This document shows positions 41,735 through 44,365 of a DNA stretch of 47,352 nt, one piece after another. This DNA is from Clostridia bacterium (GTDB lineage Bacteria; Bacillota; Peptococcia; Peptococcales; SKKY01): positions 1 through 47,352 of the forward strand of contig RZYW01000006.1 in assembly GCA_009930175.1 (NCBI GenBank), given 5' to 3'. Each line of letters begins with the position of its first letter. The first letter of the stretch is position 1. The translations under genes were made by a program, and so were the position numbers. The notes under the pieces were generated by a model. That model made no database searches, was not told where the DNA came from, and saw nothing but the letters and a program-made list of their open reading frames with translations.

Positions 41735-43096
41735 TTATTCACTTATTACTTTGCTTTTTACCGTAACATCAATTGGAGGCAGATCTATATAAAACTCACT
41801 ATATGCTGACATTGCATGTTCTTCCATATCTAATCCATTAAGTTCTTCATGTTCAGGAACTCTGATCCCAATAGTAGCTTTAATTACTGTTGCTAAAATA
41901 AATCCTATTGTTACACACCAGAGGAAAGTTGCTCCAATACCAATTGCTTGAGCAAAAAGTAAGTCCATTCCTCCTCCATAAGCAAGGCCACCATCAAGGG
42001 CGAAAATACCTACAGCAAATGTTCCAAAAGCTCCGCAAACACCATGTACCGAAATTGCTCCTACCGGGTCATCTATTCTTATTATTCTGTCAAACAACTG
42101 TACTGCCATTACAAGAATTACACCTGCAAATAAACCAGTTATTATTGATCCAATTGGAGACATAACATCTGCACCTGCAGTAATGGCAACAAGTCCAGCC
42201 AAGGCACCGTTTAGAGTAAATGTAATATCCGGCTTCCCAAATTTCAACCATGAGTACACCATGGAACTAATCGTTCCTGCTGCTGCAGAAAGAAGAGTAT
42301 TTGTTGCAATTACAGTTATTGCTGAAGAGGCCATTCCAGATAAAGTACTACCAGGGTTAAATCCAAACCAGCCAAACCAAAGTATTAACACACCTAATGC
42401 ACCAAGGGGAATATTATGTCCCGGAATTACATTAATTTCTCCTTTAGGTCCATATTTCCCAATCCTGGCTCCCAAAACGTAAGCTATAATTAATGCCGAC
42501 CAGCCACCAACTGAATGAACAACAGTTGAGCCTGCTAAATCATGGAATCCAAGCTCAGATAACCATCCTCCACCCCATACCCAATGGGTTACAACTGGAT
42601 ATGTTAGAGCTGTTGTTATTATTGCTATAATCAAATACGCCTGAAACTTAATCCTTTCAGCAACTGCTCCAGAAATTATAGTTGCTGCAGTTGCAGCAAA
42701 AACCGCTTGAAAAAAGAACGCTCCTGGCAAATAAATTCCAAAATCAAAATCAGCAAATCCTGATAATAAAAATCCTGAAGTTCCTAAAAATCCCTTCAAA
42801 CTTTCACCGTAAGCTATACCAAAACCTATAACAAAAAAACAAATAACGCCAATTGCTACAGTAATCATATTTTTCATTAGAATATTTATAGTATTCTTAG
42901 ATCTTGTAAAACCGATCTCAACAAGAGAAAAGCCTGCATGCATAAAAAACACCATAAAACCAGCAATCATAATCCAAATTGTATCTATCGCTAAAGTAAT
43001 CGCACTGAAAGATTCTTCAATTTCCACTGCTTCCAGAGCAAACCCATTTATTCCCGTAAAAATAAATAAGACCAGTAATAATAATAATTTTTTCAT
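41735..43096 (-). CDS. amtB: Ammonium transporter AmtB
   Basis: Amt/MEP/Rh ammonium channel, 453 residues, with a cleavable signal-like N-terminus (about 1-20) and 11 membrane helices. The pore twin-His is present: STVVHSVGG (near residue 185) and SVHGVCGAFG (near 345). A cytoplasmic C-terminus, from about 410, is where PII docks. It follows the PII gene by 28 bases with SD AGAGGG, the conserved glnB/glnK-amtB pair. It is expressed, by inference, under the ANTAR-type attenuator upstream of glnB, and ends in a strong terminator. Confidence 0.96.
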   Translation of the reverse strand: MKKLLLLLVLFIFTGINGFALEAVEIEESFSAITLAIDTIWIMIAGFMVFFMHAGFSLVEIGFTRSKNTINILMKNMITVAIGVICFFVIGFGIAYGESLKGFLGTSGFLLSGFADFDFGIYLPGAFFFQAVFAATAATIISGAVAERIKFQAYLIIAIITTALTYPVVTHWVWGGGWLSELGFHDLAGSTVVHSVGGWSALIIAYVLGARIGKYGPKGEINVIPGHNIPLGALGVLILWFGWFGFNPGSTLSGMASSAITVIATNTLLSAAAGTISSMVYSWLKFGKPDITFTLNGALAGLVAITAGADVMSPIGSIITGLFAGVILVMAVQLFDRIIRIDDPVGAISVHGVCGAFGTFAVGIFALDGGLAYGGGMDLLFAQAIGIGATFLWCVTIGFILATVIKATIGIRVPEHEELNGLDMEEHAMSAYSEFYIDLPPIDVTVKSKVISE

Positions 43097-43124: not shown

Positions 43125-43463
43125 TTATAAAGCGTCTCTATCCTTCTCACCAGTTCTGATTCTTATTGCTCCAGAAATATCCTGAATAAAAATCTTCCCA
43201 TCTCCTACTTTTCCAGTTTTAGCATTTTCAATAATTATTTTTATTACATCCTCAGCTTGTTCAGCTTTAACTACTATCTCTAGTTTTATTTTAGGTAATA
43301 AATTTATGTGTATCGGATTACCTCTGTAAAATTCTGTTTGTCCTTTTTGTAAACCACACCCAACAACCTGAGTTATTGTAATCCCGCTAATCCCAAAATC
43401 AGAAAGAGCTGTTTTAACTCCCTCAAGTCTGGAAGGACGAATTACTGCTTCAATTTTTTTCAT
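43125..43463 (-). CDS. glnB: Nitrogen regulatory PII protein (GlnB/GlnK type)
   Basis: Trimeric nitrogen/carbon/energy sensor of 112 residues that binds ATP/ADP and 2-oxoglutarate and docks on AmtB. Conserved ligand residues are present: Gln39 (GLQKG), Lys58 (PKIK), the B-loop KTGKVGDGKIF and the C-loop IRIRTGE. The T-loop is divergent: it reads EFYRGNPIHINLLPK, so Tyr46 is kept but the uridylylation/adenylylation Tyr51 is Ile and position 49 is Asn. Covalent control at these sites is thus impossible. ATG 43463 is chosen with SD GGAGG 9 bases upstream; the TTG at 43472 overlaps the SD region. Confidence 0.95.
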   Translation of the reverse strand: MKKIEAVIRPSRLEGVKTALSDFGISGITITQVVGCGLQKGQTEFYRGNPIHINLLPKIKLEIVVKAEQAEDVIKIIIENAKTGKVGDGKIFIQDISGAIRIRTGEKDRDAL

Positions 43464-43507
43464 ATTGCTCAACCTCCAATTTTCATTTTTTAATTAAACT
43501 TTTTGAA

Positions 43508-43572
43508 ATTAAGGGCCATGGAATGGAAAGGATTAATGGGGGATCCTGAAACTAAAATCCATGGCCCTTAAT
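43508..43572. repeat. Perfect 15-bp inverted repeat with 35-base loop before glnB
   Basis: ATTAAGGGCCATGGA (43508-43522) and TCCATGGCCCTTAAT (43558-43572) are exact inverted copies. The 35-base loop can form a further small stem (AGGAT/ATCCT on the minus strand). No T-run follows on either strand, so it is not a terminator. It lies between the ANTAR attenuator and the glnB SD. Confidence 0.85.
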
Positions 43573-43588
43573 ATTCTGGTGCTTTAAT

Positions 43589-43643
43589 AAAAAAAGCGCC
43601 CAGGGAAAACATACCGAAAACTCGATATATTTTCTCTGGACGC
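43589..43643 (-). terminator. Attenuator terminator between the ANTAR gene and glnB
   Basis: Minus strand: outer stem GCGTCCAGAGAAAA / TTTTCCCTGGGCGC (43630-43643 with 43596-43609, one mismatch and one G-U). It is extended by an inner stem ATATCGA / TCGGTAT with loop GTTT, and followed by seven T (43589-43595). Its 5' arm overlaps the hexaloop hairpin described at 43636-43653. Confidence 0.85.
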
Positions 43644-43653
43644 CTTTGCCCAG
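43636..43653 (-). promoter_or_regulatory. ANTAR-type hexaloop hairpin (antiterminator) before glnB-amtB
   Basis: Minus strand: 6-bp stem CTGGGC / GTCCAG closes a six-base loop AAAGGC, with A at loop position 1 and G at position 4, the residues conserved in ANTAR target RNAs. The 3' strand (43636-43641) lies inside the 5' arm of the terminator at 43589-43643, so the two structures exclude each other. It begins two bases after the ANTAR gene stop codon. A partner hairpin P1 was not found. Confidence 0.6.
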
Positions 43654-43654
43654 C

Positions 43655-44236
43655 TTAAAAGGATAGTTCTTTGATTATTTTTTCTGAAACAACTTTCACG
43701 CTTTTCCCGGTTTTCATACTAATTTTCTGAATTAGTTTATGGGCTTCCGGTTCAGAAAGCTGCCTGTTCTTAATCAAAAGTTCCTTTGCTATATTTATTT
43801 TTTTCTTTTCTGCAAGCACTTCATTTACTTCAAGCAACTTATTTTCTAGTTCAACAATTTTTTTGTAACTTTGCGTTATCAGCTTAACAGCCACTCTCAG
43901 AACTTCAAAGCTCAGGGGAGTTGTTAAATAGCTTGCACCCCAACCATCCTTTTCAATAATTTCTTCAATAGGTTTAACAAGCCTTTTATTTGAAATAATA
44001 AAGACTAGTGGTCCCATTCTTTCCCTTGCCAGAACCTTTGACACCCTTATACCATTTGTCCCGTATTCTGAAGGGTCAAAAACTACTAATGAATTTTTCA
44101 AAGAATGTGTTTGTCTTAACAGATTTTCCAAATCATCTGTTTCGATAATCTGATTAAAACCCATTTGCTTTAAACCAGCTTTAATATTTTGGAAAAGCAA
44201 ATTTTTCTTCATACAGATAATTGCTGATTCCCCCAT
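43655..44236 (-). CDS. ANTAR-domain RNA-binding antiterminator with degenerate receiver domain
   Basis: About 193 residues. N-terminal receiver-like domain (about 1-125), a coiled linker (about 125-145, VELENKLLEVNEVLAEKK) and a C-terminal ANTAR RNA-binding domain (about 145-193: INIAKELLIKNRQLSEPEAHKLI...KVVSEKII). The receiver looks non-phosphorylatable: the acidic pair after strand 1 is missing (ICMKKNLL) and the conserved Lys near the end is Thr (LTTPLSF), though an Asp sits near the usual site (VVFDPSE). The start is ATG 44236 (alternatives GTG 44245/44248); the longer frame to 44302 would translate a terminator hairpin. It lies between typA and glnB-amtB and is flanked by two ANTAR-type RNA elements. 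Confidence 0.85.
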   Translation of the reverse strand: MGESAIICMKKNLLFQNIKAGLKQMGFNQIIETDDLENLLRQTHSLKNSLVVFDPSEYGTNGIRVSKVLARERMGPLVFIISNKRLVKPIEEIIEKDGWGASYLTTPLSFEVLRVAVKLITQSYKKIVELENKLLEVNEVLAEKKKINIAKELLIKNRQLSEPEAHKLIQKISMKTGKSVKVVSEKIIKELSF

Positions 44237-44259
44237 AAACAGCACCACACTTCCGGAAT

Positions 44260-44297
44260 AAAAAAAGTCCTCAGAACAGTATTGCTGTTCCAAGGAC
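44260..44297 (-). terminator. Leader terminator of the ANTAR gene
   Basis: Minus strand: fully paired 13-bp stem GTCCTTGGAACAG / CTGTTCTGAGGAC (two G-U pairs) with loop CAATA, followed directly by seven T (44260-44266). It lies between the promoter and the ANTAR start codon, so it must be read through for expression. Confidence 0.88.
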
Positions 44298-44320
44298 CCC
44301 ATTGTCCATAAATCTATTTA
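44294..44320 (-). promoter_or_regulatory. ANTAR-type dual hexaloop element in the ANTAR gene leader
   Basis: Second hairpin (P2, 44294-44307): stem GGAC / GTCC with loop AATGGG (A1, G4); its 3' strand is the beginning of the terminator 5' arm. First hairpin (P1, 44309-44320): a short A-U stem TAA / TTA with loop ATAGAT (A1, G4), one base before P2. P2 is convincing; P1 is weak because only three pairs form. This layout matches the tandem hexaloop motif bound by ANTAR proteins. Confidence 0.6.
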
Positions 44321-44336
44321 GCTATGTTATGTTTGA

Positions 44337-44365
44337 ATTATATTATCTGTAGATTTTAAAGTCAA
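44337..44365 (-). promoter_or_regulatory. Sigma-A promoter of the ANTAR-glnB-amtB operon
   Basis: Minus strand: -35 TTGACT (44360-44365), 17-base spacer, perfect -10 TATAAT (44337-44342). The predicted start is near 44330, leaving a leader of about 95 bases that holds the hexaloop hairpins and terminator. No good promoter is seen between the ANTAR gene and glnB. Confidence 0.8.

Follow-up and report, generated by a model that had tools for sequence, protein, structure and literature searches.

The closest described relative of the locus reported here is the system of EutV, the receiver-ANTAR protein of the Enterococcus faecalis eut genes (PMC3369931, PMC8934654). Ramesh 2012 defined the ANTAR target RNA by two hexaloop hairpins, P1 and P2, and removing P1 impairs EutV action. 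EutV needs P1 for eutP induction in vivo (PMC3369931), and in vitro antitermination was lost when the linker joining the two hairpins was extended (PMC8934654). The EutV-RNA structure showed contacts with one hexaloop at a time, and the minimal EutV binding site was redefined as one hexaloop, although both hexaloops are still necessary for antitermination (PMC8934654). Genes for P-II, the ammonium transporter, and glutamine synthetase are among the ANTAR targets (PMC3369931). In Pseudomonas aeruginosa, the gene for the pseudo-receiver ANTAR protein AmiR lies downstream of the amiECBRS leader that this protein antiterminates (PMC3369936), so autoregulation by layout is not new. It is also implied in clostridial operons in which an element is followed by glnA and then an ANTAR gene (L070, L071, L080, L095, and L107). 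In the open-licence literature, no paper was found on ANTAR autoregulation via the regulator's own leader or on single-hairpin ANTAR targets.

The operon analysed here lies in a 47,352-nucleotide stretch of DNA (the window). Its promoter, P2 hairpin, and two terminators (T1 and T2), as well as their conservation and gene contexts, can be read from the sequence itself (Table 1). Like the eut system, it combines a receiver-ANTAR protein with a gene cluster that contains several elements and with an A1/G4 hexaloop hairpin whose 3′ arm lies in the 5′ arm of a terminator, and the loop is closed by C-G as in the published AGCAANGRRGCUY motif. It differs in that there is no credible P1, the receiver is degenerate, the tyrosine that stacks on G4 is replaced by histidine, and elements are found before the regulator's own gene and before glnB-amtB. 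Compared to the dual-hexaloop definition, a P2 with A1/G4 and at least three pairs, its overlap with a terminator, and an ANTAR protein in the genome were all found, whereas a short-linker upstream P1 with an A1/G4 hexaloop was found neither at the leader nor at the second element. The gene order also differs. amiR is a late gene of its operon, and in the clostridial glnA-ANTAR operons, which share the upstream element, the nitrogen assimilation theme, and the single hexaloop, the ANTAR gene comes after glnA; here the regulator comes first, with its own leader and a second gate behind it. The locus is a real, conserved case of a known mechanism. The parts and the nitrogen theme were known already; the single-hexaloop form is a variant, and the tandem layout is unusual.

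Table 1. Features of the ANTAR-glnB-amtB operon (window positions; loops in square brackets)
Feature	Position	Strand	Remarks
Promoter TTGACT-17-TATAAT	44337..44365	-	11/12 matches; the sister species also has an upstream TTGACT-17-TATAAT
Claimed P1, TAA[ATAGAT]TTA	44309..44320	-	probably not a functional hairpin
P2 antiterminator hairpin GGAC[AATGGG]GTCC	44294..44307	-	hexaloop with A1/G4
Intrinsic terminator T1 with T7 tail	44260..44300	-	5′ arm includes the P2 3′ arm
ANTAR regulator gene	43655..44236	-	degenerate receiver and ANTAR domain; ATG at 44236, or in-frame GTG at 44245/44248
Second P2 hairpin CTGGGC[AAAGGC]GTCCAG	43636..43653	-	36.7 bits with the leave-out model
Second intrinsic terminator T2, overlapping second P2	43588..43647	-	element -34.1 kcal/mol, z -7.3
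Third stem-loop before glnB, apical loop CCCCCAUU	43505..43576	-	conserved, 14-15 bp, z -5.8
glnB-type P-II signalling protein	43125..43463	-	
amtB ammonium transporter	41735..43096	-	

Promoter, P2, and terminator of the ANTAR gene leader

The promoter sits between the end of typA (44398) and the ANTAR gene, all on the minus strand, and P2 starts about 23 nt downstream of the expected transcription start. The GTCC strand is common to P2 and T1, the stem of which (44300-44264) consists of 13 pairs, or 16 with a weak extension, followed by the T7 tail. The predicted folding energy was -3.9 kcal/mol for P2 alone compared to -21.3 kcal/mol (z -5.2) for the terminator-containing stretch, in which P2 is open. 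This means that P2 and T1 are predicted to be mutually exclusive with the terminator as the default, and that something must therefore hold P2. The promoter, the strand shared between the hairpin and a 13-bp terminator ending in seven T, and the ANTAR identity of the controlled gene (Pfam ANTAR PF03861, 44.6 bits versus a cut-off of 27.3) had all been claimed in an earlier, sequence-only reading of this DNA, and each was borne out.

P2 and the terminator were present in the leaders of all five known orthologues (protein identity, 40-67%), and no other close orthologue turned up when 84,980 species genomes were scanned with a pattern-based search. In 30 aligned elements from relatives, the P2 pairs formed in 120 of 120 cells (four of four pairs in 30 of 30 elements), with compensatory changes at two of the four pairs, and the terminator stem showed 75 two-sided changes compared to 26 expected. 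The elements behind the first covariance model (R1) were chosen partly for having P2 and a terminator; therefore, sequences from the window's genus were left out of a second model (R2), so that for the window and its sister species, but for no others, the selection is no longer circular. R2, the covariance-model check that the sequence-only reading had proposed, found the leader at 33.1 bits. An Rfam search of the window gave no curated RNA family at the gathering score, and the weak E-value matches were taken as chance.

Alternatively, the leader could be a plain constitutive attenuator, or the terminator of typA, with the A1/G4 hairpin a coincidence. In favour of the latter version, typA ends upstream on the same strand and shows no obvious terminator, but a strong promoter separates it from T1. 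Coincidence also fits poorly with a scan for A1/G4 hairpins whose 3′ arm starts a terminator: the only two sites in the window belong to this operon, and 20 shuffled versions of the window contained no such site. Furthermore, the sister species has exactly the same P2 sequence, although the remainder of the terminator has diverged, and only four sites were found in the whole genome, three of them at nitrogen genes (see below). We regard either version as very improbable.

The sequence-only reading had also described a weaker upstream hairpin with the loop ATAGAT, and hence the paired A1/G4 signature of ANTAR targets. This part was not confirmed. The hairpin consists of only three A-U pairs and is not in the predicted fold, and because this P1 is not credible, the paired signature is absent from the leader. 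It might be argued that TAA[ATAGAT]TTA is nevertheless a weak P1 stabilised by the protein, making the leader a canonical dual-hairpin target: the loop carries A1 and G4, three pairs are the minimum used in PMC3369931, and a strong P1, GTGC[AATGGC]GCAC or TGTGC[AATGGG]GCACA, is present 8-14 nt before P2 in orthologues from another family. However, the linker here is 1 nt long, the closing pair is A-U, no A1/G4 hairpin occurs at this position in the sister species, and shuffling the 23 nt in question gives a hairpin of this type about 4% of the time. Such a dual-hairpin target thus appears improbable. Given the strong P1 of the other-family orthologues and the lack of a credible one here, P1 seems to have been lost or to have degenerated in the genus of the window. 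A by-eye comparison of ANTAR residue types gave no simple rule that would explain the loss. In the glutamine synthetase III (GSIII) leader of the same genome, there is a clear A1/G4 hairpin, GGAC[AAAGAA]GTCC, but it lies ~27 nt from P2.

Two further features of the region were noted. An open frame running from upstream of the ANTAR start through the terminator (ATG at 44302) was rejected; it is not conserved, and the sister species has an in-frame stop codon. Around the ANTAR start (44214-44248, minus strand), 34 of 35 nt are the same as in the sister species, silent positions included, compared to a gene average of 72%; this is perhaps a further RNA signal.

The second element and its relatives across the genome

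The earlier reading overlooked a second element, complete with a terminator, between the ANTAR gene and glnB (43651-43586, minus strand). No promoter of quality was found between this element and glnB. An element follows the ANTAR gene in five of five orthologues, before glnB in two, GSIII in one, and amtB in two, and none of these five elements has an A1/G4 P1.

Downstream of the second element, the third stem-loop occurs in a single copy per genome and shows one compensatory change in the sister species. Two possible pairing partners of its loop, CCCCCAUU, occur in both species: the P2 loop AAUGGGG and the ANTAR start AUGGGGGAAUC. Compared to shuffled sequences, the energies of these pairings ranked among the best 0-2.4% in each species, but the best partner is not the same in the two.

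Genome-wide statements rest on covariance-model searches. When the whole 1.79-Mb genome was searched with R2, only four sites were found at E≤1: the second element, the site on contig C123 (35.5 bits), the leader, and a site on contig C78 (29.6 bits) just before the GSIII gene. The C123 site (L141, C123:377-423) precedes an 85-residue Cys-rich open reading frame (YNCLNCYLCKYCSNCSNLVNCENC) without a Pfam match, which is possibly a new member of the nitrogen regulon.

Across the class, an element (E≤0.01) was found in 23 of 32 ANTAR-encoding genomes compared to 0 of 14 genomes without ANTAR (Fisher p 7e-6, with kinship ignored); some of these genomes contributed sequences to R1, the model used for this count. 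Elements elsewhere precede glnA, GSIII, amtB, nifH, an asparagine-synthase-like gene, and glutamate dehydrogenase; these names come mostly from sequence inspection, with a subset tested. The proposal of an ANTAR-type antiterminator ahead of this ANTAR gene is therefore supported by the orthologues, the leave-out model, co-occurrence with ANTAR proteins, and the nitrogen genes behind the copies. In one genome (L006, 1232 and 1903, minus strand), both operon elements have a G-initial hexaloop, GAAGAC, and its glnA element keeps A1.

The regulator and the proposed double gate

The alignment of the regulator with Rv1626 (1s8n) and EutV (6wsh) spans its length. Its receiver half scored 21.9 against the Response_reg cut-off of 30.2. 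A candidate Asp54 is present here and is Glu in one orthologue, there is no N-terminal acidic pair, and the conserved Lys is replaced by Thr. The receiver may be unable to accept phosphate, in which case a partner protein perhaps carries the signal. No kinase gene was found among the adjacent genes, and position alone makes P-II the obvious candidate for such a partner. Of the EutV residues with a role in RNA binding (PMC8934654), Glu160 and Met172 are kept. Tyr164, which stacks on loop G4 in EutV, is His in all five orthologues, where Arg168 is Gln and Arg175 is Gly, and the Asn173/Arg175/Arg177 patch is not kept. The RNA contacts must therefore differ in detail from those of EutV. Neither ANTAR protein of the genome received a specific name from an NCBIfam search.

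We consider it quite probable that the leader (44330-44260, minus strand) is a single-hexaloop ANTAR attenuator that provides positive autoregulation, with a second gate before glnB-amtB and probably also control of GSIII. By default, RNA polymerase starting from the promoter would halt at T1. The active regulator would grip P2, which uses the first terminator strand, such that T1 could not form and the regulator's own gene would be transcribed. The same transcript would then meet the second P2 and T2, which the same protein must open before glnB-amtB can be made. With two such structures in series, the ammonium-uptake genes would be gated twice. We infer that the operon's own ANTAR protein is the one that binds, with the two gates acting in this order, and that the signal is nitrogen status, perhaps via a partner protein. 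If so, the operon is a compact natural design of a self-amplifying, twice-gated ammonium-uptake switch, in lineages where nitrogen control has been little studied.

As for autoregulation itself, the layout supports it as an inference; however, the genome encodes a second ANTAR protein. Its gene, on contig C65 (L001), sits between a veg-like gene and glnA, with glnA immediately downstream. The leader might then be a genuine ANTAR target that is read by the C65 protein, in which case the operon would be cross-regulated and not autoregulated. Each of the five genomes that carry this operon also has a gene for the second ANTAR protein, a single ANTAR protein in other families accompanies glnA and GSIII elements alike, and the C65 ANTAR-glnA locus lacks an element, whereas its counterparts in other genera have one. 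On the other hand, elements in the leader and just behind this ANTAR gene in five of five genomes are the layout expected for self-control. In addition, in the dual-ANTAR genomes, the second stem pair is G-C in antar and amt elements and A-U in those of glnA and GSIII, a weak hint of separate specificities. Control by the C65 protein is therefore unlikely, though it retains some weight, and positive autoregulation is the reading that we prefer.

Single-hexaloop elements in other Clostridia

Among the collected loci, an A1/G4-type P1 was found in only 16 of 72 distinct elements, compared to 3.4 expected by chance. A TTGACA/TATAAT promoter (at least 10 of 12 matches) ends 6-13 nt before the P2 core in 17 of 64 elements, compared to 0.4 expected from shuffles. 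This places the expected start within a few bases of P2 and leaves P1 no space. Ten downstream genes were tested, and all were nitrogen-related or plausibly so: glutamate dehydrogenase, glnA, GSIII, class-II glutamine amidotransferase, NAD synthase, and amidase. ANTAR proteins would presumably act on these P1-less elements as well. That many clostridial ANTAR regulators antiterminate via only one hexaloop, without a recruiting P1 hairpin, and that the present operon places two such gates in series, before the regulator itself and before ammonium uptake, to form a self-amplifying and doubly gated switch, is a proposal we hold at even odds. The natural P1-less leaders, here and in many Clostridia, would be direct test cases for the purpose of P1. 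Near-perfect promoters 6-13 nt before P2 were observed at L070, L071, L074, L078, L080, L093, L095, and L100 and also at L152, L154, L155, L157, L161, L162, and L163.
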